From NCBI GenBank assembly GCA_947591245.1, contig CANQCY010000001.1, forward strand, positions 62,001-126,000: 64,000 nt of DNA, read 5' to 3'. Below the pieces are notes generated by a model. The model saw only the letters and a program-made list of their open reading frames with translations. It did no database searches and was not told the DNA's origin. A program made the translations under genes and the position numbers. This DNA comes from an uncultured Lachnospiraceae bacterium. Lineage in GTDB: Bacteria; Bacillota; Clostridia; Lachnospirales; Lachnospiraceae. Positions 38,125 to 59,275 of this stretch are shown one piece after another (the stretch's first letter is position 1; each line of letters starts with the position of its first letter).

Positions 38125-38153
38125 TAGACATGTCACAAAAATAGTGATATACT
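38125..38153 (+). promoter_or_regulatory. Promoter of the xylan transporter array
   Basis: TAGACA (38125-38130), 17-base spacer, TATACT (38148-38153). A symmetric site follows just downstream. Confidence 0.6.
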
Positions 38154-38181: not shown

Positions 38182-38270
38182 AGAATTCAATTATGCGTTT
38201 TGCTGCGATCGGTTTTTTGTGTGAAACGCATAAAAAGAGAAAAAGAGGGCGAAAGGAGATTGCGACAGCT

Positions 38271-41200
38271 ATGTCAAAGTTGATTAAGAAAAAAGGCTTT
38301 AGGACATTCCTTGTGGTTGTAGTGATTATTGCGGCGCTGGCGCTGTTTTTTAAACTCAAGGGAATATCGGTAAGCGACAACTCAGACAAGTATGCGGGCG
38401 TGGACTTTGAAGCAGCGGGGAATGAATATGGGCGTACGGATACATATTCGATTTATGCTGCCGCTCACGGTGATGCCATGCCAGAGGGTGCGGAAAACAC
38501 TTATGAATTGGACGTGTTCGGCTATACGGACAGCAAGGGCGTATCCAAGAGAACGGGAGTGGGTCCGGATAATGACAAAACGGACGCGCTGCAGATTTCG
38601 GAGGAGGGATATGCCGAGTATAAGGTGAACGTCAAACAGGCGGGCTATTACAGTATGGCTGCTGAATATTACCCCACGACGGATGACGATGACCGTGGAA
38701 TTGAGATTGAAACGAAGGTGGAGATCAATGGATCGGTACCCTTCAACGGTGCGGATGCAATTTCGTTCCAACGCGTATACACGGATGCGGGCGACCCGAC
38801 CAAAGATAATCAGGGCAATGAAATTCGTGCGGCGCAGATCCAGGATCCGAACAGGGGCTGGATGCCGGCGTACTTTGAGGATGCGACAGGGTATGAGGTT
38901 GAGCCGTACAAATTTTATTTTGAGGCGGGCGAAAATACGATACGCCTGACCGGCGTCAATGAAAAATTTGTCCTCCGCAAACTTACGATCGGAAATCCTG
39001 GGAAGACTCCGACGTATGAAGAATATGCGCAGAAGAATTCCAGCGCGCCAAATAATGTGTCGGATTATCTTGGCAAGATTCAGGGAGAGACGGCGCTCAG
39101 GCGTTCTTCGCCGTCCCTGTATGCGACTTATGACAGGACTTCAAGCGACACGGAGTACGAGAACCGTGAAAGCGGAGAGGTGACGACCGGAAACACGGAC
39201 AAACAGGTTCTGAATATGACTGGCGGTACGCAGTGGAAAGTAGCGAATGACTGGCTGGAATGGGAGTTTGAGGCGCCGGAGGATGGCGAATACGTCATCG
39301 GCATCAAAGGACGGCAGGGTTATAACCGCGGATACATAGCAAACCGCTGCCTCTATATTGACGGCGAGATTCCGTTTCAAGAAGTATCCCAGATTCGTTT
39401 CACCTACAGCAGCGTGTGGTCGATGACATGTCTGCAGGATGACAAGGGGGAACCTTATAAATTCTATCTCACAAAAGGAAAGCATGTTATCCGCCTGAAA
39501 AATACGCTTGGCGACCTCGGGGAATATCTGTCGCAGCTTTCGGACAGCGTATTCAATATGAACAAGATGTACCGTACGATTCTTGTCCTGACCGGAACCG
39601 AGCCGGATTCATATCGCGACTATCAGATTGAGAAGGTATATCCGGAAGTCATAGAGGCGATGGATATAGAGTCCAAGAGGCTTTATAAGCTGGTGGATGA
39701 GGTTACCGCTTATGCGGGAGAGAAGAGCGGAGAAATTTCGGTGGCGCAGACGCTTGCGGCGCAGATGGAGAAATTTGTGAAGCGGCCGGACAAAATCCCG
39801 TCCACATTGGGGAATTTTAAAGAAAACGTCAGCTCGCTCGGTACTTCGATCAACAACCTGAGCGCGGCGTCTATGGATATTGATTACATAGCGATTGCGA
39901 GCAGCAAGGATAAGCTGCCGCAGGTGGATGAGAATGGATTTGACAAGCTGGTGCATGAGTCAGTACTCTTTGTCAACTCTTTCAGAAGCGATTCATCTGC
40001 TCTTGGAAACATATATGACTCGAAGGATAAGGACGTAATCGATGTGTGGATTACGGCGGGACGTGACCAGAGTACGATTTTGAAAAACATGGTTGACCAG
40101 CTGTTTACGCCGGAGACAGGGATCAAGGTAAACGTCAAGCTGATTGATGCGGCAAATACGGCGACGTCTACCGGCGTCAACGCCATGCTGCCGGCTGTCA
40201 TTTCCGGTTTCGGACCGGATGTGGCGCTCTGTATTGCGCAGACAGAGCCGGTTAACTACGCGCTTAGAAACGCCGTTGTAGACCTCAACCAATTTCCGGA
40301 TTTGAATGATGTCCTTTCGGAATATTATGAGAGCTCATATCTGTCTTACCGGTTTAACGGAGGTTTATATGCTTTGCCGGAGACGCAGAACTATAACGTA
40401 ATGTTCTACCGGACGGATATTATGGAGGATCTTGGCATTGATGTGGAGAAGCAGGTCAATACGTGGGATGAGGTGCTGCAGATACTTCCGATTCTGCAAA
40501 AGAACAGCATGACGTTTGCGGTTCCTTCGGTAGAGCGTAAAATCGGAAATACGACAAATCCCGACCTTGCGAATTATTTCGCACAGCTTTACCAGCGGGG
40601 CGGCAGACTGTATGATGAGGAAGCAATGCAGTCTACGATTGACTCCGCGGCGGGCATCGAGGCGTTTGAATTCTACACAAAACTGTTTACAAACTACAAG
40701 CTGGAGAAACAGTATGACTTTGTCAACCGTTTCCGAAGCGGCGAGATGCCGATTGGCGTTGCGGATTACAATAACTTTAATACTCTTGCGGTATTTGCGC
40801 CGGAGATCAAAGGCCTTTGGAATTTTGCCCTTATGCCGGGCGTGGAGAAGGAAGACGGAACGATTGACCGTTCGGTTCAGTCTTGGGGCACGTGTTCCAT
40901 GATGCTTCGCGGGGCGGAAGACAGAGGCAAGAAAGACATCAGCTGGGAATTCCTCAAATGGTGGGCGAGCGCCGAGACTCAGGCGAACTTCGCCAGCGAG
41001 CTCGAAGCTGTCATGGGAGCCTCTGCACGTTATGCGACAGCCAACAAAAAGACGTTTGATACGCTGTCATGGAGCAGTAAGGAATCGACAGCGCTGAAAG
41101 AGCAGTGGGAATATGCATTTGGCGTACCGGAGGTTGCCGGAGGATATTATACATCCCGCCATATCACGAATGCGATTCGTAAAGTAATGAACCAAAATGA

Positions 41201-41303
41201 AGACCCAAGAGAGACTCTTCTTGATTACGTCATTACGATTAATCAGGAGATTCGGAATAAACGCGACGAGTTTGGCCTGCCAAACTTGCCGGAAAATAAT
41301 TAG
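38271..41303 (+). CDS. Membrane-anchored solute-binding protein with N-terminal CBM-like modules
   Basis: 1010 aa from ATG 38271 (AAAGGAGA about 13 bases upstream; the in-frame ATG at 38193 lacks a site). One N-terminal membrane anchor (FLVVVVIIAALALFF), no lipobox. Residues ~104-240 and ~310-443 look like two beta-sandwich carbohydrate-binding modules (both run EYKV/WEFEAPEDGEYVIGI... to EPYKFYF/YLxxGxxxIRL). A helical spacer (~456-573) leads to a family-1 solute-binding domain (~588-1005; FGPDVALCIAQTEPVNYALRN, LYALPETQNYNVMFYRTDIM). Typical sugar-binding proteins are about 430-500 aa, so this is roughly double. It heads an operon with two permeases. Confidence 0.85.
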   Translation: MSKLIKKKGFRTFLVVVVIIAALALFFKLKGISVSDNSDKYAGVDFEAAGNEYGRTDTYSIYAAAHGDAMPEGAENTYELDVFGYTDSKGVSKRTGVGPDNDKTDALQISEEGYAEYKVNVKQAGYYSMAAEYYPTTDDDDRGIEIETKVEINGSVPFNGADAISFQRVYTDAGDPTKDNQGNEIRAAQIQDPNRGWMPAYFEDATGYEVEPYKFYFEAGENTIRLTGVNEKFVLRKLTIGNPGKTPTYEEYAQKNSSAPNNVSDYLGKIQGETALRRSSPSLYATYDRTSSDTEYENRESGEVTTGNTDKQVLNMTGGTQWKVANDWLEWEFEAPEDGEYVIGIKGRQGYNRGYIANRCLYIDGEIPFQEVSQIRFTYSSVWSMTCLQDDKGEPYKFYLTKGKHVIRLKNTLGDLGEYLSQLSDSVFNMNKMYRTILVLTGTEPDSYRDYQIEKVYPEVIEAMDIESKRLYKLVDEVTAYAGEKSGEISVAQTLAAQMEKFVKRPDKIPSTLGNFKENVSSLGTSINNLSAASMDIDYIAIASSKDKLPQVDENGFDKLVHESVLFVNSFRSDSSALGNIYDSKDKDVIDVWITAGRDQSTILKNMVDQLFTPETGIKVNVKLIDAANTATSTGVNAMLPAVISGFGPDVALCIAQTEPVNYALRNAVVDLNQFPDLNDVLSEYYESSYLSYRFNGGLYALPETQNYNVMFYRTDIMEDLGIDVEKQVNTWDEVLQILPILQKNSMTFAVPSVERKIGNTTNPDLANYFAQLYQRGGRLYDEEAMQSTIDSAAGIEAFEFYTKLFTNYKLEKQYDFVNRFRSGEMPIGVADYNNFNTLAVFAPEIKGLWNFALMPGVEKEDGTIDRSVQSWGTCSMMLRGAEDRGKKDISWEFLKWWASAETQANFASELEAVMGASARYATANKKTFDTLSWSSKESTALKEQWEYAFGVPEVAGGYYTSRHITNAIRKVMNQNEDPRETLLDYVITINQEIRNKRDEFGLPNLPENN

Positions 41304-41320
41304 AGAGAGGAGAGCAGTAT

Positions 41321-42256
41321 ATGAAGTTTCTGGGACAATATATGCAGATTAAGAAACGGAATATGAGCATTGCATGGAAAAGGGCAAAAATGTCCAAAAC
41401 CTGTTATCTGTTTCTGCTGCCATATGCCATCGTGTTTACGGCGTTCTATATTTTGCCGGTATGCATGTCGATTTTCTACAGTTTTACATACTACAATGTA
41501 CTGGAACCGGCAAGATTTATCGGATTGGAAAACTATATTGACCTGTTTCTTTCCGATGATGTGTTCCTGATCGCCATTAAGAATACATTCCTTCTGGCGG
41601 CGATTACAGGCCCGCTCGGATATATCATGTCATTCATATTTGCATGGTTTATCAACGAACTGCCCAGATATATCCGTGCCTTCGCGGTGTGCGTGTTTTA
41701 TGCGCCGACGATTTCCGGTCAGGCGTATATGGTATGGTCAATCCTGTTCAGTGGAGATGCTTACGGATATGTAAATGCGTTTCTTATCAAATTCGGTTTT
41801 ATCAACGAGCCTGTTTTGTGGCTTACCGATGTGAAGTACATGATGAATGTGGTAATCATCATCGTACTGTGGATGAGCCTCGGTACCGGATTCTTGTCCT
41901 TTGTGGCGGGGCTTCAGGGAATCGATGCTTCACAGTTTGAGGCGGGCTACGTGGACGGCATCAAAAACCGCTGGCAGGAGCTGTGGTATATCACGCTTCC
42001 GAATATGAAGCCGATGCTTTTGTTCGGCGCGGTTATGGCGATCACGCAGTCGTTCGGCGTGGCGGATGTTACGATGGCGCTTTGCGGTTTTCCGAGTACG
42101 GATTATGCGGCGCGAACTGTTGTCACCCATTTGATCGACTATGGAACAACGCGATTTGAAATGGGTTATGCATCAGCGATAGCGACGGTATTGTTTGTGG
42201 TTATGATCGTATGCAACAAAGCAATACAGGCATTGCTGAACAAAGTTGGAACTTGA
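41321..42256 (+). CDS. Sugar ABC transporter permease (MalF/UgpA type)
   Basis: 311 aa, six hydrophobic segments, with the EAA loop FEAGYVDGIKNRWQELWYITLPNMKP that contacts the ATPase. CUT1 family importer for oligosaccharides. GAGAGGAGAG precedes ATG 41321. Works with the next gene and the large binding protein upstream. No ATPase gene accompanies them. Confidence 0.92.
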   Translation: MKFLGQYMQIKKRNMSIAWKRAKMSKTCYLFLLPYAIVFTAFYILPVCMSIFYSFTYYNVLEPARFIGLENYIDLFLSDDVFLIAIKNTFLLAAITGPLGYIMSFIFAWFINELPRYIRAFAVCVFYAPTISGQAYMVWSILFSGDAYGYVNAFLIKFGFINEPVLWLTDVKYMMNVVIIIVLWMSLGTGFLSFVAGLQGIDASQFEAGYVDGIKNRWQELWYITLPNMKPMLLFGAVMAITQSFGVADVTMALCGFPSTDYAARTVVTHLIDYGTTRFEMGYASAIATVLFVVMIVCNKAIQALLNKVGT

Positions 42257-42273
42257 TAGGAGGTATAACGGCG

Positions 42274-43137
42274 ATGAAATTAATCAAGCTAAAAAGAAGA
42301 AAGCCGAATCGTTCCCGCGGGGGCGATATGGGAATTTACATAATGCTGATCTTGTTTGGTTTATTCTTTGTTATGCCCCTTGTGTATGCGATTAGCAGTG
42401 CGTTTAAACCATTGGATGAGATTTATCTTTATCCGCCGAGATTTTTTGTAAAAAACCCGACGTTTAACAATTTTCAGGATCTGCTCGTTGTTATGTCAAG
42501 CTCGTATGTACCGTTTACCCGTTACGTATTTAATACGGTGCTGACGACGCTGGTTGGAACGGTCGGACATCTTCTGATCGGATCCATGGCGGCGTATGTG
42601 CTTGCGAAATATTCTTTCCCGGGCGGAAAAGGTTTCTTCAACCTTTGCCAGTCGGCGCTTATGTTTAACGTGTATGTGCTTCAGATTCCGACGTATCTGA
42701 TCATGTCCGGACTCGGCTGGGTAGATACGTATCTGGCTTTGATCGTACCGGCATTTGCGCTTCCCATGGGGCTTTTCCTGATGAAACAGTTTATGGAACA
42801 GATTCCGGATGCGCTTATTGAGGCGGCGAAGATTGACGGCGCGAGAGAGGGAAGGATCTATCTTCAGATCGTCATGCCGAACGTAAAACCGGCATGGCTG
42901 ACAGTGACGATATTCTCAGTGCAGAATCTTTGGAATCAGAAAGGGCAGGTCTACATCTATTCAGAGGAATATAAAATGCTGCCGTATGCGCTGCAGCAGA
43001 TTATGTCCGGCGGTGTGGCGCGTGCCGGCGTTGGTTCGGCTGCTACGATGGTCGTTATGATGGTGCCGATCATTATCTTTATCATGGCGCAGAGCAACAT
43101 TCTTGAAACGATGGCTAGTTCGGGTATCAAGGATTGA
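42274..43137 (+). CDS. Sugar ABC transporter permease (MalG/UgpE type)
   Basis: 287 aa from ATG 42274, chosen for AGGAGG nine bases upstream; an earlier in-frame ATG lies inside the previous gene. Six hydrophobic segments with the EAA loop IEAAKIDGAREGRIYLQIVMPNVKP and a MalG-like C-terminus. Pairs with the preceding permease. Confidence 0.92.
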   Translation: MKLIKLKRRKPNRSRGGDMGIYIMLILFGLFFVMPLVYAISSAFKPLDEIYLYPPRFFVKNPTFNNFQDLLVVMSSSYVPFTRYVFNTVLTTLVGTVGHLLIGSMAAYVLAKYSFPGGKGFFNLCQSALMFNVYVLQIPTYLIMSGLGWVDTYLALIVPAFALPMGLFLMKQFMEQIPDALIEAAKIDGAREGRIYLQIVMPNVKPAWLTVTIFSVQNLWNQKGQVYIYSEEYKMLPYALQQIMSGGVARAGVGSAATMVVMMVPIIIFIMAQSNILETMASSGIKD

Positions 43138-43155
43138 TGAAAAGGAGGATGAAAT

Positions 43156-44646
43156 ATGAGAGTATGTAAGAAAATAATGTCTGTTTTTTCTCTGGTACTT
43201 ACCGCATCCATCCTTTTTGGCACTGCGGAAGCGGCGGCTACGAGTTCAGACGGAAACCATTACACATACATATATGACTGTTGGGGAGAGGACCGGGAAT
43301 CGCCGGATGCCTATTCCGTCACCCGTACAATCACCGGTTCAGACTTTGCATGCGGTAATTTTGTGGAACCGAAAGGGTTGTACGTGATCGGAAAATCCAT
43401 GTATGTGGTGGATACCGGAAACAGCAGAATAGTACAGTTTACCTATGACAATGACGTCTTCACAATGGTAAGGGAGATCAAGGAATTTACAAACAACGGC
43501 GCGCAGGATTCATTGAGCAAACCGGAGGATGTGTATGTGGATGAAGCCGGCGAGATGTATATTGCAGATACGGGAAATTACAGAATCGTTCATCTGGATG
43601 CTTCCGGAAATGCGATCAAGGTGATTACAAGGCCGGAGGACGAGACGGTAGACCAGACTACGGACTTTCTCCCCCAGAACCTGGTGGTAGACAAATCAAA
43701 GAGAATTTTTGCGCAAGTGCAGAATGTCAATAAAGGATTTATGGAATTTGCCAGCGACGGATCCTTTACCGGATTTGTAGGGGCAAGCAAGGTTACTTAC
43801 AACTTTTTGGAATATTTGTGGAAGATGGTGGCGAGTAAGGAGCAGAGAGAGCAGATGACGCTTTTTGTACCGACCGAGTACAGCAATCTGTGTCTGGATT
43901 CCGAAGGATTTATCTATGCGACGATCGCTTCCCTGGAGGAAGGAAAAGATCCTCTTTTGGCCCAGCCGATCCGTAAGCTGAATGCAAAGGGAACGGATAT
44001 TCTCATACGAAACGGATATGAAGAACCGGCGGGCGACCTGTGGTGGACCGGAAGCGGCGAGATAAGCGGCGCATCTAAGTTTGTCGATATTGCCTGTCTG
44101 GATAACGACGTATATTATGCGCTTGACAGCACGAGAGGGCGTGTGTTCGCTTATGATTTTCAGGGAAATATGCTGTATGCATTTGGCGGGCACGGATATA
44201 AGGCGGGATATTTTATCAATCCCTGCGCTTTAGAAGATCTCGGCGATACGCTCGTTGTACTGGATTCCAATCTTGGTTCGATCACGCAGTTTACCCTGAC
44301 TGAATACGGCGCTTATATAAATGAAGGGCTCAGTCAGTACAAGCAAGGCGATTATGACGCATCGGCGGCTACATGGCAGAAGGTGCTTAAGATGAACGGA
44401 AACTATGATCAGGCTTATATCGGTATCGGGCGCGCTTACTTAAGGCAGAAAAAGTATACGCAGGCGATGGAATACTTCAAGTTAAAGCTTGACTCCGTAA
44501 ATTATTCAAAGGCATACAAACTTTACCGAAAAGAATGGTTTGAAGACAATATCAAATATATTATTGCCATCATAGCTGTCTTGGTAGTCTTTGGTTATGG
44601 CTATGGATTTGTTAAGAAGGCAAGGGAGGAGGTAAAGAAAGGATGA
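43156..44646 (+). CDS. NHL-repeat and TPR protein, secreted, C-terminally membrane-anchored
   Basis: 496 aa. Signal peptide (about 1-27, ending TAEAAA). Residues ~60-400 hold repeats of the NHL type (KPEDVYVDEAGEMYIADTGNYRIV, EPKGLYVIGKSMYVVDTGNSRIV), which build a beta-propeller. Residues ~400-460 contain about two TPR units (GDYDASAATWQKVLKMNGNYDQAYIGIGRAY). A C-terminal membrane helix (YIIAIIAVLVVFGYGYGF) and a short basic tail follow. It probably faces outward and mediates protein contacts. It lies inside the sugar-transporter array; a scaffold role is inference. AAGGAGG precedes ATG 43156. Confidence 0.78.
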   Translation: MRVCKKIMSVFSLVLTASILFGTAEAAATSSDGNHYTYIYDCWGEDRESPDAYSVTRTITGSDFACGNFVEPKGLYVIGKSMYVVDTGNSRIVQFTYDNDVFTMVREIKEFTNNGAQDSLSKPEDVYVDEAGEMYIADTGNYRIVHLDASGNAIKVITRPEDETVDQTTDFLPQNLVVDKSKRIFAQVQNVNKGFMEFASDGSFTGFVGASKVTYNFLEYLWKMVASKEQREQMTLFVPTEYSNLCLDSEGFIYATIASLEEGKDPLLAQPIRKLNAKGTDILIRNGYEEPAGDLWWTGSGEISGASKFVDIACLDNDVYYALDSTRGRVFAYDFQGNMLYAFGGHGYKAGYFINPCALEDLGDTLVVLDSNLGSITQFTLTEYGAYINEGLSQYKQGDYDASAATWQKVLKMNGNYDQAYIGIGRAYLRQKKYTQAMEYFKLKLDSVNYSKAYKLYRKEWFEDNIKYIIAIIAVLVVFGYGYGFVKKAREEVKKG

Positions 44647-45308
44647 GTATTAAGCAACGAATTCTCGACAAAAAAGCTTGGATTTCGTATCAAAAATCAT
44701 TGCGCTATTGTTTCCATTGTATTGTCCGTCCTTTCGACGGTTTCTGGGATCTGACTCACGAAAAAAGGGGATCCTTTGCAGCTGCCAATACTTTGGTCGT
44801 ACTCGTGCTTTTGACAAAATTGATCAAGCTTGCCGGCACTAGCTTTATTTTTGAACCGGTCAACTGGAATGATGTAAATATACTGTTTCAGATCATGTCG
44901 TTTTTACTTCCTTTTATCATTTACTGTGTGGCAAACTGGTGTCTGACGACGCTGTTTGAAGGAAAAGGTACGTTGAAGGATATTTACATGGGTACTGCCT
45001 ATGCAATGACTCCGTATATTTTAATTCAGCTGCCGCTCGTAATTTTAAGTAACTTTGTAACAGAAGAAGAAGGTGCATTTTATACATACTTCGGTTATTT
45101 TTCATTCGTATGGTGCGCATTCCTTATCGTTGCATCCGTAATGATGATTCATGACTTCCTTGTGGGAAAAGCGCTTGCTTCGCTTATTTTTTCCGGGGTA
45201 GGCATGCTGGTGATCGTGTTCCTTATGCTACTCTTCTTCAGCTTGATCAGTGGCGGTTTCTCATACTTCTATTCGCTGTATAAAGAGATCGTTTACCGGT
45301 TCTATTAA
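44643..45308 (+). CDS. Yip1-family integral membrane protein
   Basis: 221 aa with five hydrophobic segments and the Yip1 (PF04893-type) layout: HCIVRPFDGFWDLTHEKRGS near the start, then YMGTAYAMTPYILIQLPL and a final pair of helices. The ATG overlaps the stop of the NHL/TPR gene (ATGA), so the two are translated together. Bacterial Yip1 proteins have no firm function. Here it may be the membrane partner of the NHL/TPR protein. Confidence 0.75.
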   Translation: MSIKQRILDKKAWISYQKSLRYCFHCIVRPFDGFWDLTHEKRGSFAAANTLVVLVLLTKLIKLAGTSFIFEPVNWNDVNILFQIMSFLLPFIIYCVANWCLTTLFEGKGTLKDIYMGTAYAMTPYILIQLPLVILSNFVTEEEGAFYTYFGYFSFVWCAFLIVASVMMIHDFLVGKALASLIFSGVGMLVIVFLMLLFFSLISGGFSYFYSLYKEIVYRFY

Positions 45309-45334
45309 ATTTGGAAGGAGGGCGGTGTTCAGAA

Positions 45335-47908
45335 ATGAAAAGGAAATTGTATGTATTTTTAGTTGCAGCAACGGTTTCAGTTGTTTTGGCGGGCTGCGGG
45401 TCATCTTCCACAGGCTATAAGGAACTTACTTCATATACGAATGCGGAGAGCCAGACGGAAACGATCAGCAATGACTCGTTGGAGTTGACGGTAGATAAAG
45501 ATTCCACGACGTTTGAACTGAAAGATAAGCTTCACAGCAAGGTGTATACGTCCAATCCCTCCACGGAGGACATTGATAAATATGCTAAGGCGGATGGGCA
45601 GCTCAAGGATGTGCTGAATGCGACGCTCACGCTGACGTATTCCAACGTTACGGATACGCAGACGGTGATCAATAATTACAGCTCATCTATTCAGGATGGC
45701 AATTACGCCATAGAAAAGGTGAGCGATACGCAGATTGACGTCCATTACACGATTGGAGATATTGAAAAACTGTTTGTTTGCCCGCTTGTCATTAAAGAAT
45801 CAGCGATGAACGAGTGGTTGGGGAAGATGTCCGACGGCGAGCAGAAAACGGTGAGGCGTAATTATCTTTATTATAATTATGAAGAGCTTAAAGGAGCGGA
45901 CGACGATACGGAGCTTCAGGCGGCGCTGCAGAAGTTTCCGGATCTTGAGGATGAAGCGGTCTTTTATCTGACGGAAAAAATAACGGATTCCAAGGCAAAG
46001 GAACTGGAGAAGATCTTTACAAAAGCCGGATACGATGAGGCGCAGCGGAATAAAGACAGTGAGCCTTATAACGTTTCGAGAAACAGCGGCAAGCCGATTT
46101 TCGATATCACAGTCCAGTATATTCTGGATGGGCATGATCTTGTCGTTAAGGTTCCGATGGATCAGGTTGAATACAATAAGGACTACCCGATTATCGACCT
46201 TACCATTCTTCCGTATATGGGAGCCGCCAATTCGGAAGAGGCGGGATACGTTCTTGTGCCGGACGGCGCAGGCGGCATCATTAATTTCAATAACGGCAAG
46301 ACCGGACAGCAGACATACATAAGCGATATGTATGGATGGGATTACGGCATCAGCCGCGATATGATAGTAGATGAGACAAAATCCAATTTCCCGCTGATCG
46401 CTATAGCGAACCAGACGGCAGGAAAATCATTCCTCTGCCTGAGCGAGGAGGGAAGCTCTTATTCAAGCGCAAAGGCTGATATTGCCGGAAAAGAAAATGG
46501 TTACAATTACGGACAGTTCGTATATAAGATGATTCACGGCGAGGATATGGATATTTCCGCCAAATCGGATACGACGGTGCGTTCATTTGAGGAAAGCCTT
46601 CCAAAAGAAAATTTGTCGCAAAGATATATTTTCTCGGACAAAACGGATTATGTCAGTCTGGCGGAAGAGTACCGCGAGTATTTGATGAAGCGCTATCCGG
46701 AGCTTCAGAAGAAAACAGAGGCGACAGTGCCGATGGCAGTGGAGCTGGTTGGCGCGGTAGATAATACGGAGCATATACTCGGTTATCCGGTGACCCGTTC
46801 GCTGCCGCTTACGACTTACTCGGAGGCCGAAGATATTTTGAAGCAGCTCAAAGGAGCCGGAGTGGATAGCCTGAGCGCAAAATACACGGGATGGTTTAAC
46901 ACTGGAGTAAACCAGAAATCCGCGGCGAAGGTGAAACTGATCGGAAGGCTTGGAGGCAAATCCGATGTTAAGAGCCTTGCCGCCTACGCGGCGGCTACCG
47001 GAGGGCTGGATCTGTACCTCAATGCGAAATTTATGTATGCTGTGAAAAATACGATGTTTGATGGCTTTGGCGTAAATGCAAACGCAGCAAAATTTGTCAG
47101 TCGCGAAATCTGCGAATTGTATACTCTTGATCCGATTATTTATCAGACAAACGAGGATTATGAGACTTGCAGCATGTATTATCTGACAAGACCGGATTAT
47201 ACGATTGCGAATATTGACAAATATATTGATGCGATTTCTGCTTACGGAACCCGTAATATCGGATTCGAGGATGTGGGAAGTTCGCTTGCCGGCGACTACA
47301 ATCCAAAAGCAAGGGTTTCAAGGGAAGCGTCAATGAATATGCAGGTTGACAAGATGAAATCGCTCAAAGAGAGCGGGAGCCTTGTGATGACGACGAGCGG
47401 CAATCAGTATGCCGTTCCGTATTCGGATTATGTGACGGATGTGAATATTGCGCCGAGGGCGGTAAATATCATTGACGAGTCGGTTCCGTTTTATGCGATT
47501 GCGCTTCATGGGCTTGTAAATTATTCGGGAAGCGCTATAAACCTCTCTGAGGACCAGACAAAGATGATCTTGAAATCGGCGGAGACGGGAGCGGGTCTGT
47601 ACTATACGTTTATGAATGCTCCGACAAGCGTGCTTCAGGATAGTGAATACACGCAGTTTTATGCATGTAATTTCATGGACTGGAAAGATACGGCGATCGG
47701 TCTTTACAACCGCTTTCAGGATGAGCTTGCGGATGTTTACAATCAGTATATCGTCGGTCATGAAAAACTGGCGAGCGGAGTGTACAAAACGGTATACGAA
47801 AACGGAAAAGTCGTGCTTGTAAATTATAATTATGCGGATTATGATTATAACGGCAAGAATGTTCCGAAAAGAGACTTTGTTGTCATGAAAACAGGAGGTG
47901 GAGAATAA
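45335..47908 (+). CDS. Large DUF5696 lipoprotein, possible cryptic glycoside hydrolase
   Basis: 857 aa from ATG 45335 (GGAGGG upstream). Lipoprotein signal with lipobox L18-A-G-C21. I assign DUF5696 on recalled neighbourhood and sequence style. The build suggests a carbohydrate-active enzyme: an N-terminal beta-rich region (~30-370, with ELKDKLHSKVYTS and GYVLVPDGAGGIINF), a central alpha/beta region (~470-760, with SLSAKYTGWF, LDLYLNAKF and NIGFEDVGSSLAGDY) that could be a TIM barrel, and a C-terminal strand domain (GVYKTVYENGKVVLVNYN) like those ending many glycosidases. Catalytic residues are not established. Surface location inside a xylan importer operon supports action on oligosaccharides before uptake. 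Confidence 0.7.
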   Translation: MKRKLYVFLVAATVSVVLAGCGSSSTGYKELTSYTNAESQTETISNDSLELTVDKDSTTFELKDKLHSKVYTSNPSTEDIDKYAKADGQLKDVLNATLTLTYSNVTDTQTVINNYSSSIQDGNYAIEKVSDTQIDVHYTIGDIEKLFVCPLVIKESAMNEWLGKMSDGEQKTVRRNYLYYNYEELKGADDDTELQAALQKFPDLEDEAVFYLTEKITDSKAKELEKIFTKAGYDEAQRNKDSEPYNVSRNSGKPIFDITVQYILDGHDLVVKVPMDQVEYNKDYPIIDLTILPYMGAANSEEAGYVLVPDGAGGIINFNNGKTGQQTYISDMYGWDYGISRDMIVDETKSNFPLIAIANQTAGKSFLCLSEEGSSYSSAKADIAGKENGYNYGQFVYKMIHGEDMDISAKSDTTVRSFEESLPKENLSQRYIFSDKTDYVSLAEEYREYLMKRYPELQKKTEATVPMAVELVGAVDNTEHILGYPVTRSLPLTTYSEAEDILKQLKGAGVDSLSAKYTGWFNTGVNQKSAAKVKLIGRLGGKSDVKSLAAYAAATGGLDLYLNAKFMYAVKNTMFDGFGVNANAAKFVSREICELYTLDPIIYQTNEDYETCSMYYLTRPDYTIANIDKYIDAISAYGTRNIGFEDVGSSLAGDYNPKARVSREASMNMQVDKMKSLKESGSLVMTTSGNQYAVPYSDYVTDVNIAPRAVNIIDESVPFYAIALHGLVNYSGSAINLSEDQTKMILKSAETGAGLYYTFMNAPTSVLQDSEYTQFYACNFMDWKDTAIGLYNRFQDELADVYNQYIVGHEKLASGVYKTVYENGKVVLVNYNYADYDYNGKNVPKRDFVVMKTGGGE

Positions 47909-48817
47909 ATGAAGAAGCAAAAAAAGAAAAGGACTCTGGCTTTTAAAAATGCGGTGGCAGGATATTTGTTTATTGCGCCATTTATCCTTGGGTTTCTCCT
48001 GTTTATGCTTGTTCCGTTAGGAAAGTCGCTGCTGATGAGCTTTAATGAGGTTGAACTTCGTGCCGGCGGTTTTGATATGACATGGGTCGGAATCAAAAAC
48101 TACATGGATGCTTTCACGGTAGATCCGGAATTTGTTCCGTATCTGTTGGCGGAACTCCTAAAGGTAGTGATAAATACGCCGGCAACGCTTATATTCAGTT
48201 TCTTTATTGCGTTGTTGCTGAATCAGAATTTTAAAGGAAGAGGTGCGGTTCGTGCTATCTTCTTCCTTCCGGTAATCCTTTCATCCGGCGTCATTGTAGG
48301 TATTGAGTACAACAATGCATTGCTGCAGGACATGAAGGATGTGATTGCGGAGACGTCAAATGAGACCAGCGTCACCGGGGTGCTCGAAAGCATTCTGATC
48401 ACATCGGACAGCAGTCCGGTTTCCATAATGTTTTCATATGTATTTGACATTATCAATCGGGTATATGATATTGCAATTGCCTCCGGTATTCAGATCATTA
48501 TGTTCCTGTCAGCCCTGCAGACGATTTCACCGAGCATGTTTGAAGCGGCGAAGATTGAAGGGTGTACTGCATGGGAAAGCTTCTGGAAGATAACGTTTCC
48601 CATGGTTAGCTCTATGATACTCGTAAACATAGTATATACCGTAATCGATTTCTTCCTGAAAACTGATAATACAGTCATGACGAAGATTTCCGAGGAGGTA
48701 GAGAAGTTGAGTTATGGATCTAGTTCGGCGATGTCTTGGGTATATTTCCTGTGCGTGATTGTTATCCTTGGTATTGTTTCGCTGATTATTTCTAAGAGGG
48801 TGTACTATTATGAATAA
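47909..48817 (+). CDS. Sugar ABC transporter permease (LplB/MalF type), second importer
   Basis: 302 aa, about six hydrophobic segments. The EAA loop is MFEAAKIEGCTAWESFWKITFPMV. The start overlaps no gene but directly follows the DUF5696 stop (GGAGGTGGAG just upstream). There is a longer periplasmic-side loop (~residues 135-165) than in the first permease set. Pairs with the next gene and the solute-binding lipoprotein at 49891. Confidence 0.9.
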   Translation: MKKQKKKRTLAFKNAVAGYLFIAPFILGFLLFMLVPLGKSLLMSFNEVELRAGGFDMTWVGIKNYMDAFTVDPEFVPYLLAELLKVVINTPATLIFSFFIALLLNQNFKGRGAVRAIFFLPVILSSGVIVGIEYNNALLQDMKDVIAETSNETSVTGVLESILITSDSSPVSIMFSYVFDIINRVYDIAIASGIQIIMFLSALQTISPSMFEAAKIEGCTAWESFWKITFPMVSSMILVNIVYTVIDFFLKTDNTVMTKISEEVEKLSYGSSSAMSWVYFLCVIVILGIVSLIISKRVYYYE

Positions 48818-49826
48818 AAAGAAAAAAGTCAAAACCTTAATTGAAAAAGAAAGCTTTTTCGAACGAAACAAAAAATCCAACGGGTACTTATTGCGAAAAA
48901 CATCGTTCAGCGTATGCTATAAGATTTTACGCGCTATTCTGCTGTTTGGATTGTGTTTCATGATTTTGCAGCCGTTGTTGAATAAAGTCTCCCTGAGCTT
49001 CATGGAAGAACAGGATCTGTATGATTCGACGATTGTTGCGATACCGCGTCATTTTACAACGGGAAATTATCAGATTGCTGCCTATCTGATGAAATACTGG
49101 CAGTCGCTTCTGAATACAGCATTACTTTCCCTCCTGGTCAGCGTTCTGCAGATTATTTCCTGTACGCTGGTTGGATATGGGTTCGCCCGGTATAAATTCC
49201 CTCTTAAGGGATTGTGGTTCGGAGCGGTGATCCTTGTGATTCTCGTTCCGCCGTCTACAATACAGGCGTCCCTTTACCTGAATTTTTGTTATTTTGATAT
49301 TTTCGGTATTTTTGCATTCTTTAATAACGGACAGCCGTTGAACCTGCTGAATTCCATTACGCCGTATGCGCTCATGTGCCTTGGCTGTATGGGACTGAAG
49401 AGCGGTTTGTATATTTACATGATCCGCCAGTTCTTCCGCGGCATTCCAAAGGAGCTGGAGGAGGCGGCTTATGTAGACGGCTGCGGCAAGCTGTCGACAT
49501 TTGTGAGGATTATGCTTCCAGATGCAAAACCGATCATTACATCATGCTTCCTGTTTGCATATGTGTGGCAGTGGACGGATTCTTTCTACTCCAATCTGTT
49601 CCTCAATTCGGATTATGCGCTTCTCTCGACGAAATTGTCGAATCTGGCGGGGGCGCTGGACAGCTATTTGGATGTTCAGGGTATAGCAAAGAAGGCGACT
49701 ACGGCATATTCTCAGGGCATGATCGCAACGGGAACGCTGATGGTTATAATTCCGCTGATCATTTTGTATTTGTTCGCACAAAAAGGATTTGTGGAGAGCC
49801 TGAGCCAGACCGGTATCAAAATGTAA
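48810..49826 (+). CDS. Sugar ABC transporter permease (LplC/MalG type), second importer
   Basis: 338 aa; overlaps the preceding permease by eight bases. Six hydrophobic segments and the EAA loop LEEAAYVDGCGKLSTFVRIMLPDAKP. It has an extra basic cytosolic N-terminus of about 40 residues (KKKKVKTLIEKESFFERNKKS) before the first helix, which the first MalG-like permease lacks. Confidence 0.9.
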   Translation: MNKKKKVKTLIEKESFFERNKKSNGYLLRKTSFSVCYKILRAILLFGLCFMILQPLLNKVSLSFMEEQDLYDSTIVAIPRHFTTGNYQIAAYLMKYWQSLLNTALLSLLVSVLQIISCTLVGYGFARYKFPLKGLWFGAVILVILVPPSTIQASLYLNFCYFDIFGIFAFFNNGQPLNLLNSITPYALMCLGCMGLKSGLYIYMIRQFFRGIPKELEEAAYVDGCGKLSTFVRIMLPDAKPIITSCFLFAYVWQWTDSFYSNLFLNSDYALLSTKLSNLAGALDSYLDVQGIAKKATTAYSQGMIATGTLMVIIPLIILYLFAQKGFVESLSQTGIKM

Positions 49827-49890
49827 GAAGTTATCGTCTGCTGCGTATTGGCAGGCGTAACAATAAAAAATTAAAGGAGGTAAACAATTA

Positions 49891-51333
49891 ATGAAGATGA
49901 ACATGAAAAAAGTGTTTGCTATGGGGCTTGCATTGACGCTTACTGTCGGAAGCCTGACTGGATGTGGAGATTCAAGCAATCAGGGGAGCTCTACATCGGT
50001 AGCGACGCCAGCGGCAGACGAAGGAGGTAACGGAGGGGGCGGCAGCTCGACCAAAAAGACATTTGATGATCTTGGCGGTATGTCGATTACGATCGGCGAC
50101 TGGTATTCTTCCGAAGAGGTGGGAGAGACCGAGTATGCGAAGGCAACCGAGGAATATCGGAAAGAGATTATGGAAAAGTATAACTTCAAAATAGAGCGCA
50201 GCACGCAATATTCCTATCAGGATCAGCAGCAGGAGTATGTAAACGGCGTTATGTCCGGAAGTCCGAAATGCCAGCTGTTTTATCTGTATCAGGAGAAGGT
50301 TCCCGCACCTTTGATGAAAGGCCTGATGTATGACCTCAAAACTCTGCCGGAGTTTGATTTCACAGAAGAGAAATGGAATCCGACGGTTGTTGAGATTATG
50401 AGCCTGGGTGATGGCATCTGGGGCATGAACCCGGAGTCGGAGCCTCGCGGAGGCATATTCTTTAACAAGCGCATGCTGAAAGAGGCAGGCATTGATGAAG
50501 ATGAGCCGTACGATCTTCAGAAAAGCGGAGAGTGGACATGGGATAAGTTTGAAGAGTATTGTAAAAAGCTGACGATTGACAGCGATGGCGACGGACAGAC
50601 TGACCGTTATGCGCTGGCAAGCTTTTCAAAATATTTCCTGCCGATGTGTGCGGCAAACAATAATGCGACATTTGTAACGCGCAACGACAAAGGCGAGTAT
50701 GAAAATGCAACCGGTTCCAAGGAGTTCCTTTATGCTATGAACTGGGGAATGAGCCTGGCTGAAAAGGGGTATATCATGCCGGATCCGCCGGGAGTTGCAT
50801 GGGATTGGTATAAAGCTGCGTTCCGCGACGGCGAGGTTGCTATGCAAACGTCAGAGGTATATGAGATCTCTGCATTTGCAGGCATGAAAGATGACTGGGG
50901 ATTTGTAATGTTCCCATACAATGAGAAAAACGAAGCGGCAACGAATAAGGAAATTCCAAACGACAATATTATTTGCATGCCGAGCTGCTTTGATCAGGAT
51001 ACTGCCGAGAAGATTGCATTTGCTTATGACCTTTACACAGAGCCGACGCCGGGATATGATCTGAAAGACGCAACAAAAGAGAGATACTATGAGCAGTTCA
51101 GGGATTCCCGTGCAGTGGATGAAACGCTGGAGATGATGGATGATATGGAACATAAGCAGACATCCTATCAGCCGATGATTATTGATCTGGACTATGGCGA
51201 TTTCTGCTATTCCGTATACGCTGGCGCGACGAAACCTGCGAAACAGATCGAGGAGATCTCTTCCAAGTGGAATAAAAAGATTGCAGAAATGAACAAGAAA
51301 TATGCAAACTTTGTGGCTTCAAAATCAAAATAA
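49891..51333 (+). CDS. Sugar-binding lipoprotein of the second importer
   Basis: 480 aa, family-1 extracellular solute-binding protein. Lipobox LTGC after MKMNMKKVFAMGLALTLTVGS, then a Ser/Gly-rich linker. The body includes GGIFFNKRMLKEAGID, DEPYDLQKSGEWTWDKFEEYCKKL and a domain-closing GDFCYSVYAG region. An EF-like segment IDSDGDGQTDRY may bind Ca2+. AAAGGAGG precedes ATG 49891. A hairpin after the stop may stabilise the mRNA. Ligand probably (methylglucurono)xylo-oligosaccharides, judged from downstream GH67/GH3. Confidence 0.92.
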   Translation: MKMNMKKVFAMGLALTLTVGSLTGCGDSSNQGSSTSVATPAADEGGNGGGGSSTKKTFDDLGGMSITIGDWYSSEEVGETEYAKATEEYRKEIMEKYNFKIERSTQYSYQDQQQEYVNGVMSGSPKCQLFYLYQEKVPAPLMKGLMYDLKTLPEFDFTEEKWNPTVVEIMSLGDGIWGMNPESEPRGGIFFNKRMLKEAGIDEDEPYDLQKSGEWTWDKFEEYCKKLTIDSDGDGQTDRYALASFSKYFLPMCAANNNATFVTRNDKGEYENATGSKEFLYAMNWGMSLAEKGYIMPDPPGVAWDWYKAAFRDGEVAMQTSEVYEISAFAGMKDDWGFVMFPYNEKNEAATNKEIPNDNIICMPSCFDQDTAEKIAFAYDLYTEPTPGYDLKDATKERYYEQFRDSRAVDETLEMMDDMEHKQTSYQPMIIDLDYGDFCYSVYAGATKPAKQIEEISSKWNKKIAEMNKKYANFVASKSK

Positions 51334-51358
51334 TCCGTTAGGTTTTTGAACGTATCGC

Positions 51359-51394
51359 GGGGAATTGTTTAAGGTATTTATGAACAATCCCCTG
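51359..51394 (+). other. Hairpin between the binding protein and GH3 genes
   Basis: GGGGAATTGTT and AACAATCCCC pair with one bulge, and a second small stem (CCCC...GGGG) overlaps it. TGTTCA-gaa-TGAACA follows at about 51408-51422. These may tune expression between the abundant binding protein and the downstream enzymes; a full terminator is unlikely because no T-tract follows. Confidence 0.4.
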
Positions 51395-51499
51395 CTTTCG
51401 GGGCTGTTCAGAATGAACAATATGTTTGTTTTGTTCGGCCCTGTTTTAGATTTTGTATTTCGGTGACAGCAAAAAAGCGACAGGAGATGATTAGAAAGC

Positions 51500-53659
51500 A
51501 TGAAAAAATATTTAGATGAATCTTTATCCTTTGAGGAACGGGCAGAAGCTCTTGTATCAGAGATGACGCTGGAGGAAAAAGTGTATCAGACGCTTCATGG
51601 GGCGCCGGCGATCGAACGCCTTGATCTGAAGGCGTATAATTACTGGAATGAAGCGCTTCACGGAGTAGCAAGGGCGGGAACGGCGACCGTATTTCCACAG
51701 GCGATCGGTCTTGCCGCAACGTTTGACGAAGATTTTCTGGAAGAGATCGCGGAAGCGGTTTCGGATGAGGGGCGCGCGAAATTTAATGTACAGCAGAAAT
51801 ATGGAGATTATGATATTTACAAAGGGCTCACGTTCTGGTCCCCAAACGTAAATATTTTCCGCGATCCGAGATGGGGAAGAGGGCATGAGACATTTGGCGA
51901 GGATCCCTATCTGACGTCAAGGCTTGGCGTGCGGTTTATCGAAGGCATGCAGGGAAAAGATGAGAAATATATGAAGGTGGCGGCATGTGCGAAGCATTTT
52001 GCAGTGCATTCCGGTCCGGAAGATGAGAGGCATAGTTTTAACGCAACAGTGAACGAGCAGGATTTGAGGGAGACATACCTGCCCGCATTTAAAGCATGCG
52101 TAAAGGAAGCGGGCGTGGAAGTGGTGATGGGAGCATATAACCGCACAAACGGCGAACCGTGTTGCGGAAGCAAGCGTCTCCTGCAGGATATTCTGCGCGG
52201 CGAATGGGAATTTAAGGGGCATGTCACATCGGACTGCTGGGCGATTAAGGATTTTCATGAGTTCCATATGGTTACCTCTACGCCTGTAGAAAGCGTGGCG
52301 CTTGCGATGAACCGCGGCTGTGATTTAAACTGCGGAAATATTTACGGAAATCTTTTGAAAGCGGTCAAGGACGGGCTGGTGGAGGAAGAAGCGATTACGC
52401 GGGCGGTGACAAGGCTTTTGACGACGCGTATGAAGCTTGGGCTGTTTGACCCGCAGGAAAAGGTGCCGTTTAATGCGATTGATTATAGCGTGGTAGACTG
52501 TGAGGAACACAAGCGCCTCAATGAGAAAGCAGCGAGAAAGAGCGCGGTGCTTTTGAAAAATGAAAATCATATGCTTCCGCTCGATAAGTCAAAATATAAG
52601 ACGATCGGAGTGGTCGGGCCGAATGCGAACAACCGCAAGGCGCTTGTCGGAAATTATGAAGGAACGGCATCCGAATACATAACGCTTCTGGAGGGAATCC
52701 AGAGAGCGGTCGGAGATGAGGCGCGCGTGCTGTACTCGCAGGGCTGCCATCTGTGCAAAGACCGAGTTCAGGGATTGGCGGAGGAAAATGACAGAATGTC
52801 GGAAGTCCGCGCGGTGGCAGATGCATCCGACGTCATCATTGCCTGCATGGGCTTGGACGCCAGCCTTGAAGGCGAAGAGGGGGACGAGGGAAATGAGTTT
52901 GCCAGCGGAGATAAGCCGAACCTGAATCTTCCGGGACTTCAGGAAGATGTGCTCAAGGAGCTGGTAAAGACGGGAAAACCGATTGTTCTCGTACTGCTGT
53001 CGGGAAGCGCGCTTGCTATACCGTATGCAGACCAGAATATCCCGGCGATTCTGCAGGGATGGTATCCGGGCGCCAGGGGCGGAAAAGCGATCGCAGATAT
53101 TTTGTTTGGAAAGGCTTCGCCGGAGGGCAAGCTTCCTGTGACATTTTACCGAACAACAGAAGAGCTTCCGGATTTCCGGGATTACTCTATGAAGAACCGG
53201 ACGTACCGCTATATGGAAAACGAGGCGCTGTATCCGTTTGGTTACGGGCTCAGCTATACTGATTTTGCAATCTCGGGCGTTTCTGTTTCGGGGGATACAA
53301 TCGATGCAGGAGGCGCAGTGACGGTGAAGGCTTCCGTAAAAAATACAGGGGCGATGGCGGGAGCAGAGACAGTACAGGTATATATCCGCGCATGCATGGA
53401 CGGCGCGCCTAAATATCAGTTGAAGAATCTGAAGAAGGTTGCGCTTGAGCCGGGTGAAGAGGCGCAGGTGGAACTTGTGCTCCGTGATGAGGATTTCGGC
53501 CTCTACAATGAGGATGGCGTAAAGGTACTGAACGCCTGTGACTATGAGGTATTTATCGGAGGCAGCCAGCCGGATCGAAGGAGTGTCGCACTGACGGGAA
53601 AAGAGCCGGATAGATATGTGGTCAGACATACCGGCGAAGCGGTTGCGCTGGCGGAATAA
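51500..53659 (+). CDS. GH3 beta-xylosidase/beta-glucosidase
   Basis: 719 aa, no signal peptide, hence cytoplasmic. The N-terminal TIM barrel holds the nucleophile Asp245 in GHVTSDCWAI, with FWSPNVNIFRDPRWGRGHETFGEDPYL and KHFAVHSGPE as GH3 hallmarks. The alpha/beta sandwich (with VVGPNANNRKALVGNYEG and LPGLQEDVLKEL) and the C-terminal fibronectin-III-like domain (YPFGYGLSYTDF onward) complete a standard three-domain enzyme. Context with GH43, GH67 and uxuAB favours beta-xylosidase activity. Ribosome binding site is weak (CAGGAGATG some distance upstream). Confidence 0.93.
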   Translation: MKKYLDESLSFEERAEALVSEMTLEEKVYQTLHGAPAIERLDLKAYNYWNEALHGVARAGTATVFPQAIGLAATFDEDFLEEIAEAVSDEGRAKFNVQQKYGDYDIYKGLTFWSPNVNIFRDPRWGRGHETFGEDPYLTSRLGVRFIEGMQGKDEKYMKVAACAKHFAVHSGPEDERHSFNATVNEQDLRETYLPAFKACVKEAGVEVVMGAYNRTNGEPCCGSKRLLQDILRGEWEFKGHVTSDCWAIKDFHEFHMVTSTPVESVALAMNRGCDLNCGNIYGNLLKAVKDGLVEEEAITRAVTRLLTTRMKLGLFDPQEKVPFNAIDYSVVDCEEHKRLNEKAARKSAVLLKNENHMLPLDKSKYKTIGVVGPNANNRKALVGNYEGTASEYITLLEGIQRAVGDEARVLYSQGCHLCKDRVQGLAEENDRMSEVRAVADASDVIIACMGLDASLEGEEGDEGNEFASGDKPNLNLPGLQEDVLKELVKTGKPIVLVLLSGSALAIPYADQNIPAILQGWYPGARGGKAIADILFGKASPEGKLPVTFYRTTEELPDFRDYSMKNRTYRYMENEALYPFGYGLSYTDFAISGVSVSGDTIDAGGAVTVKASVKNTGAMAGAETVQVYIRACMDGAPKYQLKNLKKVALEPGEEAQVELVLRDEDFGLYNEDGVKVLNACDYEVFIGGSQPDRRSVALTGKEPDRYVVRHTGEAVALAE

Positions 53660-55708: not shown

Positions 55709-56794
55709 ATGGAAATGACATTGCGATGGTATGGCGAGGGCAACGACAGCGTTACGCTGGAGCAGATTCGCCAGATACCGGGTGTGAGCGGCGTGATCAC
55801 ATCACTCCACGACATTCCGGCGGGTGAGGCGTGGACGTATGAAGACGTGATGAAACGCAAACAGGAGATAGAAGCAAAAGGACTGAAATTGTCGGGGATT
55901 GAAAGCATCAATATACACGAGGATATCAAAATCGGCCTCCCGACGCGGGATGAGCTTATCGAGAATTACAATAAATCGCTTGAAGCGGTGGGAAGGGCGG
56001 ATATTCATCTGGTATGCTACAACTTCATGCCGGTATTTGACTGGACGAGAACCGATCTTGCGATGCCTCTCGCGGACGGCTCGACGGCTCTTGCCTATGA
56101 CGCATCAATTATTGACGGCATAGATGCGGGCGAGATGTTTGAGCGGGTGGAGAAAGCGAGCGGCGGTTTTGTGATGCCGGGCTGGGAACCAAACCGGCGC
56201 GATGAGATCATGGATCTGTTTGAGAAGTATAAGGATGTGACGGCGGATAAGCTGCGGGAAAATTATAAATATTTTCTCGATGGCATCATGCCGACATGTG
56301 AGAAATACGGGATAAAAATGGCGGTTCATCCGGATGATCCGGCATGGGATGTGTTTGGCCTCCCGCGTATTGTCACCTGTGAAGAGGATCTTTTGAAGAT
56401 CGCCGCACTGAACGGCAGTATTTACAATGGATTTACATTTTGTACGGGATCTCTCGGGAGCAATTTGAATAATGACTTGCCGGGTATTATCCGAAACCCG
56501 AAAATTGCAGAAAGGATTCATTTTGCCCACATTCGTAACATTAAGTATGAAAATGACCATCTCTTCCATGAGGTGTCGCATCTTTCATCCGATGGAAATT
56601 TTGATATGTATGAGATTGTAAAAGCCTTGATCGATACGGGTTTTGACGGCGTGATCCGCCCCGATCACGGACGGATGATCTGGGGTGAACAGGCGAGGCC
56701 GGGGTATGGGCTTTATGACCGCGCATTAGGCGCAGCCTATCTCAACGGTTTGTGGGAAGCGATTCAAAAAGGGAAGCGTGAAAGAGATTGCTGA
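55709..56794 (+). CDS. uxuA: Mannonate dehydratase
   Basis: 361 aa, within the shorter Gram-positive range. Converts D-mannonate to 2-keto-3-deoxygluconate. Conserved UxuA segments: LRWYGEGNDSVTLEQIRQIPGV, ESINIHEDIKIG, HLVCYNFMPVFDWTRTD, MAVHPDDPAWDVFGLPRIV and VIRPDHGRMI (metal-binding His/Asp/Cys positions). AAAGG precedes ATG 55709; the in-frame ATG two codons later is also possible. Sits between GH67 and UxuB. Confidence 0.96.
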   Translation: MEMTLRWYGEGNDSVTLEQIRQIPGVSGVITSLHDIPAGEAWTYEDVMKRKQEIEAKGLKLSGIESINIHEDIKIGLPTRDELIENYNKSLEAVGRADIHLVCYNFMPVFDWTRTDLAMPLADGSTALAYDASIIDGIDAGEMFERVEKASGGFVMPGWEPNRRDEIMDLFEKYKDVTADKLRENYKYFLDGIMPTCEKYGIKMAVHPDDPAWDVFGLPRIVTCEEDLLKIAALNGSIYNGFTFCTGSLGSNLNNDLPGIIRNPKIAERIHFAHIRNIKYENDHLFHEVSHLSSDGNFDMYEIVKALIDTGFDGVIRPDHGRMIWGEQARPGYGLYDRALGAAYLNGLWEAIQKGKRERDC

Positions 56795-56837
56795 CGAGGC
56801 GCTGCCTCAATGTTTGCGTCGCGGAAAGGAGAAAAAA

Positions 56838-59249: not shown

Positions 59250-59275
59250 GCCGATCACCCCGTCTTGTTATAAGA

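Follow-up and report, generated by a model that had tools for sequence, protein, structure and literature searches.

A recurrent gene array combining two CUT1-type importers with NHL/TPR, Yip1 and DUF5696 proteins in an uncultured Lachnospiraceae bacterium and other Gram-positive genomes

A stretch of 64,000 nucleotides (nt) from an uncultured Lachnospiraceae bacterium (contig CANQCY010000001.1, positions 62,001–126,000; referred to as the window) was found to contain nine consecutive open reading frames (ORFs) for two importers of the ATP-binding cassette (ABC) type and three further proteins located between them. The array comprises a binding protein (SBP1) and two permeases (P1a and P1b) of a first importer, a protein with an NHL propeller and TPR repeats, a Yip1-family membrane protein, a DUF5696 lipoprotein, and two permeases (P2a and P2b) and a binding protein (SBP2) of a second importer (Table 1). 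This order, which an earlier reading of the window from its letters alone (the sequence-only reading) had pointed out, was shown to be recurrent: P2a-P2b followed DUF5696 immediately in 74 of 75 loci with room for the neighbour, NHL/Yip1 immediately preceded DUF5696 in 70 of 71, and SBP1-P1a-P1b were found immediately ahead of NHL/Yip1 in 43 of 56. The array is a genuine recurrent set and not a chance neighbourhood, chance adjacency being ruled out by the recurrence of the order across the 79 loci compared. By family it would be a CUT1-type ABC importer with conserved additions. We give a probability of about 0.5 to the reading that it works as one functional unit, in which a dual importer of the CUT1 ABC type is combined with a surface and membrane platform.

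The loci were obtained by DUF5696 profile searches of 99 genomes (the window's own and its relatives) and of 299 genomes spread across the phylum. Eighty regions around DUF5696 matches were picked by match score, blind to their context, and the genes in the fetched regions were labelled by profiles built from the window proteins and their matches. Exclusion of one region (L078), which holds an enzyme of glycoside hydrolase (GH) family 129, left 79 DUF5696 loci with 14 family codes, 27 of them from the window's own genus; loci without enough contig for the neighbour tested were left out of the order counts. A single locus (L066) failed the adjacency tests for both the P2 pair and NHL/Yip1. The middle genes were thus not found mostly apart from importers, DUF5696 abutting a permease pair in nearly every locus. 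An assembly artefact was also ruled out, since many separate genomes and two annotated plasmids show the same order.

In the window, the nine ORFs lie on the forward strand between 38271 and 51333 as the operon-like run with short gaps that had been proposed, with spacings of 17, 17, 18, -4, 26, 0, -8 and 64 nt in order, the last being the longest gap and the 4-nt overlap being the ATGA at 44643. Start positions were placed by comparison with homologues; for P1b, a longer ORF opens at 42211. Terminator-like sites within 36000–54000 showed no excess over chance (19 versus 16.4 ± 4.2), and the nine genes likely form one transcript.

The members of the array were also found to co-occur. Among the 99 genomes, strong matches to DUF5696 (E below 1e-50) and to the SBP1 N-terminus (E≤1e-20) were present in the same 34, and the NHL-Yip1 profile (E≤1e-15) matched these 34 and one further genome (G079) with a partial NHL match. 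GH67, the enzyme next to the array, served as a control and was found in 24 of the 99 genomes, namely in 19 of the 34 with the array and in 5 of the 65 others. Weak DUF5696 matches were detected in ten further genomes of this set. Four of them exceeded the family cut-off, namely three GH129 enzymes (G043, G067 and G088) and a match in G052, and six stayed below it. In the phylum set (DUF5696 E≤1e-30, SBP1 N-terminus E≤1e-20), DUF5696 was found in 26 genomes and the SBP1 N-terminus in 33, including all 26, of which G201 showed it as a fragment at the end of a contig. Two of the SBP1 N-termini without DUF5696 were on contigs of 3.8 and 4.3 kb that end inside P1a, and the remaining five matches were shorter, weaker and all from one family. 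Pairwise distances of six subunits in 32 loci correlated at 0.83–0.94.

DUF5696, the key gene of the array, can be present in many copies. Five genomes of 2–3 Mb (G180, G138, G160, G233 and G263) showed 19, 11, 10, 10 and 8 matches to it. At least 550 of the 612 profile positions are spanned by 13, 6, 10, 9 and 8 of these, respectively; one of the 13 long matches in G180 has an in-frame stop. The true copy number lies between the full-length and the total match counts, the rest being fragments. The SBP1 N-terminus gave 10, 6, 4, 4 and 4 matches in the same genomes, fragments included.

The DUF5696 protein was read as a lipoprotein from its lipobox. A profile of 34 members matched GH129 structures (5opq, E=1.3e-12; 5wzn, E=3.5e-10), and hhalign comparison with three GH129 enzymes gave E=1.3e-17 across 439 columns, including the barrel and the C-terminal domain. 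Residue conservation was counted in 43 non-redundant members and is numbered according to the window protein. At the position equivalent to the GH129 nucleophile (D646 when aligned by eye through the YLDV motif), 20 of the 43 have Asp; hhalign places it instead at S650, which is likewise not conserved. At the acid/base position (T687 by hhalign), 7 members have Glu and 9 have Asp. For the enzyme NagBb, D435 and E478 were taken to be the catalytic pair, and the letters at both places agree. The calcium-ligand positions of GH129, deduced from the letter differences between 5wzq and 5wzn and from a passage of PMC8106489, were not kept among the 43 members. Residues that were conserved include W520, R663, N690, Y692, D714, P718-F719, N736 and E750, and no acidic residue was invariant across the 34-sequence alignment. 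Because the catalytic and calcium-ligand positions of GH129 are not conserved, "binds" appears to fit DUF5696 better than "cuts", and the suggestion of the sequence-only reading that the middle proteins perhaps cut glycans was not borne out. In terms of catalysis DUF5696 would not count as a member of GH129, and it may be a glycan-holding pseudo-enzyme.

A search with PF11308 (GH129) in 199 genomes (E≤1e-10) returned nothing, the control match included, and is no evidence of absence. NagBb-like GH129 enzymes with catalytic motifs present were seen in the window's order at three places (L078, 8359–10284; L130, 1266–3197; L131, 1309–3294), the one in L078 matching 5wzn at E=3e-227.

The NHL/TPR protein was read to have a signal peptide and a C-terminal membrane helix, and an SMP-30/gluconolactonase-like match within it was taken as a signal of the propeller. 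The Yip1 protein scored 42.7 bits against a Pfam cut-off of 28.6 (PF04893); no convincing PDB relative of it was found by sequence (best E 0.32). The propeller and TPR parts should face outward beside Yip1. Judged by ORF length, 38 of 70 loci encode NHL-TPR and Yip1 as one ORF of ~700 amino acids (aa) and the other 32 as two ORFs, and both domains were seen in eight aligned fused proteins. The two importers had been described as "fused into one array", which holds for the clustering of the genes; as a protein fusion it applies only to NHL-TPR with Yip1, in other genomes. On a quick tree of 71 DUF5696 proteins with several long branches, the fused and separate states required at least four changes, and well-supported branches force three of these. 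Two distant versions of the array were present inside the window's own genus (loci L056–L065 and L072 versus L039–L042 and L044–L055): the unfused version in 16 genomes, the window included, with GH67 in 16 of 16, and the fused version in 11 genomes, with GH67 in none. Nine of these 11 were in the tree, G020 and G035 being assigned by ORF length. The presence of two far-apart versions within one genus shows that the array does not simply track species.

Each importer has two permeases of the BPD_transp_1/EAA-loop type as well as a sugar-binding protein, as in CUT1 systems; P2a is marginal (26.1 bits, 0.3 under the cut-off of 26.4) and the other three permeases are over the cut-off. The assignment to CUT1, given as established in the sequence-only reading, agrees with the presence of UgpA/UgpE, MalG and GlcT/U among the best NCBIfam matches, although no curated cut-off was reached. 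The strict EAA pattern was found in 236 of 263 permeases (P1a 56/56, P1b 55/55, P2a 55/76 and P2b 70/76), and 26 of the 27 others were variants by eye, with one lacking the Gly. As the loop is kept in all four permeases, both pairs should bind an ATPase. The ATPase of CUT1 importers is usually encoded elsewhere, and aldouronate importers are of the LplA/LplB/YtcP type. One OB_MalK protein (Table 1), far from the array, was the only one found in the genome, which is 85% complete.

The two binding proteins differ. SBP1 has an N-terminal hydrophobic helix without a lipobox, read as a membrane anchor, followed by a CBM-like part (carbohydrate-binding module), a coiled-coil-like middle and a C-terminal sugar-binding domain. 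Its profile matched the solute-binding structure 5ysb (E=9.7e-31), while residues 310–408 matched the glucanotransferase 5x7g (E=3.8e-8), in a segment presumed to be its CBM35, and residues 445–508 a designed coiled coil (E=7e-7). SBP2 was the most variable member of the array between loci. Five tandem SBP2-type genes (58–79% identical, the last partial at the end of the stretch) follow the array in L084 (13131–19901), and tandem SBP2-type genes, fragments included, follow it in L080 (10498–17400).

In a single functional unit, the anchored SBP1 with its CBM-like domains and the lipoprotein SBP2 would capture oligosaccharides and pass them to P1a/P1b and P2a/P2b. The exported NHL-propeller/TPR protein would be held in the membrane together with Yip1, with which it forms the same molecule in many relatives, and the GH129-like DUF5696 lipoprotein would be the glycan-holding subunit beside the P2 pair, so that the proteins may form a physical complex. 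A shared MsmX-type ATPase, encoded elsewhere, would drive both permease pairs. A relay from importer to importer is suggested because SBP1 was not found without DUF5696, the short contigs and weak matches noted above apart. In the window, the cargo would most likely be methylglucurono-xylooligosaccharides, to be cut inside the cell by GH67, GH43 and GH3 enzymes and processed further by UxuA and a dehydrogenase. We propose only tentatively the wider possibility that a pseudo-glycosidase DUF5696 and an NHL-TPR-Yip1 platform couple two ABC importers into a Gram-positive functional counterpart of SusCD, as a module that may be copied a dozen or more times per genome and re-aimed via SBP2 and the enzymes.

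Several observations weigh against one functional unit. Of the 34 genomes in which co-occurrence was found, 27 belong to one genus and are not independent. Ten loci with room for the first importer have NHL-Yip1/DUF5696 but no first importer upstream (L083, L086, L087, L092, L094, L095, L098, L103, L104 and L111; families f84 and f69), so that the P2 half may act alone. Promoter-like sites on both strands within 36000–54000 numbered 39 versus 25.1 ± 4.2 by chance, which makes internal promoters possible, for example at 48444. None of the 79 DUF5696 regions carried a gene for an MsmX-like ATPase, the sole match among all 80 being in the GH129 locus L078, and no glycoside hydrolase is annotated within 12 kb of the array of Paenibacillus cellulosilyticus. 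An AlphaFold prediction of DUF5696 made with nine close sequences reached a pLDDT (predicted local distance difference test) of 33 only. Finally, the acidic residues D310, D336, D714 and E750 of DUF5696 were kept in 37, 39, 37 and 39 of the 43 members, respectively, and another catalytic activity is therefore possible.

The main rival is that two separate importers are neighbours in one operon, the P2 pair with NHL/Yip1/DUF5696 being self-sufficient and SBP1-P1a-P1b being a companion that acts independently on oligosaccharides of lesser length or other decoration, with no hand-over. It arises because the P2 half also stands alone in the ten loci just mentioned. The remaining three of the 13 loci that failed the test for the first importer (L069, L106 and L117) have it partial, split or downstream, and it is downstream both in L117 and in L112, the latter uncounted for too little upstream flank. 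DUF5696 matches outnumbered those of the SBP1 N-terminus in five of the seven genomes searched for both and equalled them in two, and distances correlated at 0.91–0.94 within P2/DUF5696 versus 0.83–0.88 between P1 and DUF5696/P2. The middle proteins, which the sequence-only reading had serve one or both importers, were found to be tied primarily to the P2 pair, the first importer being at times absent or downstream. We nevertheless regard two independent importers as somewhat unlikely, since the SBP1 N-terminus was never found without DUF5696 in the 99 and 299 genomes except for the two short contigs and five weak matches, and since its distances track those of DUF5696 at 0.91.

Two further explanations appear improbable. 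DUF5696 could belong to a new glycosidase family akin to GH129/GH101 and be active at the surface, trimming glycans ahead of their import, as its kinship with GH129 over the barrel and C-terminal domain and its four kept acidic residues might suggest; the variable nucleophile and acid/base positions, the unconserved calcium-ligand positions and the absence of an invariant acidic residue speak against it. It is similarly improbable that NHL-TPR-Yip1 and DUF5696 form a sensor or an assembly factor that places the transporter or signals the glycan and holds no substrate. In other systems, NHL, TPR and Yip1 domains serve in protein binding or trafficking, and a histidine kinase and a response regulator adjoin the Butyrivibrio array. 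However, no signalling domain reached the Pfam cut-off in any array protein, and the middle genes are tightly linked to the permease pair (regulators were not counted).

Compared with known systems, the array resembles CUT1 importers (UgpBAE, MalEFG and the aldouronate LplA/LplB/YtcP type) in having binding proteins, two EAA-loop permeases per importer and adjoining genes for oligosaccharide catabolism. It differs from ordinary CUT1 systems by a second permease pair, by three conserved extra proteins and by an SBP1 with CBM-like domains and a membrane anchor; to our knowledge, ordinary CUT1 operons are without such extra proteins. DUF5696 resembles the GH129 alpha-N-acetylgalactosaminidase NagBb (5wzn) and 3,6-anhydro-D-galactosidase (5opq) by profile, whereas neither the catalytic pair nor the calcium ligands are conserved in it, and it is a lipoprotein tied to permeases. 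Sus/SusCD loci of Bacteroidetes combine a glycan-holding lipoprotein with a transporter and occur many times per genome with varied enzymes. The array is like them by analogy, and unlike them it is of an ATP-driven importer type from a Gram-positive lineage. The view of the array as a Sus-like counterpart gained from the copy numbers (8–19 DUF5696 matches in the five genomes) and the varied glycan enzymes; on the other side, none of the nine array proteins, to which this search was confined, matched a SusC, SusD or TonB-type Pfam family. Gram-positive polysaccharide utilization loci (gpPULs) are defined by degrading enzymes beside one carbohydrate transport system (Sheridan et al., 2016; PMC5320581). 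The array is similar to them in the enzymes adjoining an ABC transporter, but its neighbour enzymes appear intracellular, and the DUF5696/NHL/Yip1 platform and a second permease pair are not mentioned in the passages of PMC5320581 consulted.

No published description of the array or its parts, nor the name DUF5696, was found in the literature searched (5.39 million papers), which left most subscription papers outside. The holding of large or branched glycan fragments and their hand-over to importers are less understood in Gram-positive fibre degraders than in the Sus systems of Bacteroidetes. The array appears to be a widespread apparatus with which many gut and soil bacteria would capture and take up plant-fibre fragments. 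Its three unstudied subunits, in a conserved and expandable set found in many family groups within the phylum and on two named plasmids, are named targets, and the set suggests a role for DUF5696, the bacterial Yip1 protein and their NHL/TPR partners, which are annotated singly in databases. The array is also a possible marker for better prediction of glycan use from genomes.

Table 1. Features of the array and its surroundings in the window.
Feature	Position	Strand	Evidence
SBP1, binding protein	38271..41303	+	ORF; Pfam SBP_bac_8; GH115_C under cut-off
P1a, importer 1 permease, EAA loop kept	41321..42256	+	ORF; Pfam BPD_transp_1
P1b, importer 1 permease, EAA loop kept	42274..43137	+	Pfam BPD_transp_1; start via homologues
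NHL propeller and TPR protein	43156..44646	+	ORF; Pfam NHL and TPR
Yip1-family multi-span membrane protein	44643..45308	+	Pfam Yip1
DUF5696 lipoprotein, GH129-like	45335..47908	+	Pfam DUF5696, 598 bits; profile comparison
P2a, divergent importer 2 permease, EAA loop kept	47909..48817	+	ORF; BPD_transp_1 just under cut-off
P2b, importer 2 permease, EAA loop kept	48810..49826	+	ORF; Pfam BPD_transp_1
SBP2, lipoprotein-like binding protein	49891..51333	+	Pfam SBP_bac_1
Divergently oriented neighbour of the GH43 family, no signal peptide seen	36343..37983	-	ORF; family scan
GH3, no signal peptide seen	51500..53659	+	ORF; family scan
GH67 alpha-glucuronidase family, no signal peptide seen	53672..55681	+	ORF; family scan
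UxuA mannonate dehydratase	55709..56794	+	ORF; family scan
Mannitol-dehydrogenase-family protein, perhaps fructuronate reductase (UxuB-like)	56778..58457	+	Family scan
Sigma-70-type factor (regions 2, 3, 4), just 3′ of the xylan-use genes	58473..59258	-	Family scan
MsmX/UgpC-like ATPase, candidate shared motor	9648..10760	+	OB_MalK match
Promoter-like site ahead of the array, TAGACA-17-TATACT, TGA before the -10 box	38125..38153	+	Consensus match only

The genes flanking the array in the window most likely indicate use of glucuronoxylan oligosaccharides inside the cell. By eye, no signal peptides were seen in the products of the five neighbouring enzyme genes, from GH43 to the mannitol-dehydrogenase-family gene, and the latter may be UxuB-like because the UxuA gene adjoins it. 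Besides the sigma-70-type factor, no other transcriptional regulator was found among the flanking proteins scanned, which were part of the flanking ORFs.

Outside the genus, the neighbouring enzymes were found to change from locus to locus. A scan of 80 neighbour proteins (at most two same-strand ORFs of at least 330 aa per locus; first 25 of 103 families) showed GH43 (6), GH26 (4), GH42 (3), GH130 (3), GH10 (2), GH31 (2), GH29 (2) and GH5 (2), CBMs with 2–6 members each, and also unrelated families, such as an rRNA methyltransferase. Ten single array neighbours, seven of them within the 80, comprised one protein each of GH43, GH5, GH31 and PF10091, a pectate lyase, two solute-binding proteins, two proteins of unrelated families and one without a match.

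Among plasmid records, the L079 protein matched just two. Plasmid pNP243 of Butyrivibrio fibrisolvens D1 carries genes for the regulator and kinase mentioned above, GH43, a binding protein, two permeases, NHL, YIP1, DUF5696, two permeases and two binding proteins. Plasmid unnamed1 of P. cellulosilyticus KACC 14175 carries ugpC, 37 nt upstream of the array, followed by genes for a binding protein, two permeases, a YIP1 of the long form with the NHL part, DUF5696 and two permeases. This array (L127, 15952–25818) is followed by genes for four LLM flavin oxidoreductases, two binding proteins, an NADPH-dependent oxidoreductase and an aldo/keto reductase. Flavin oxidoreductases in place of a glycoside hydrolase suggest that the cargo is not always a polysaccharide fragment; the downstream set appears to resemble sulfo-sugar monooxygenase gene sets, and a sulfonated sugar is a possible cargo.

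One pattern tried against viral contigs gave no match. Two records labelled "Bacteriophage sp." (MT835587 and MT835600; L128 and L129), both UNVERIFIED scaffolds from human faeces, carry the array and are probably mislabelled bacterial DNA; a phage origin was rejected, as these scaffolds hold a bacterial-type array. In L123 (1–9720; G138:C5), a huge open frame, reported as 24,576 aa, runs across the DUF5696 match, which suggests a masked or N-filled stretch.

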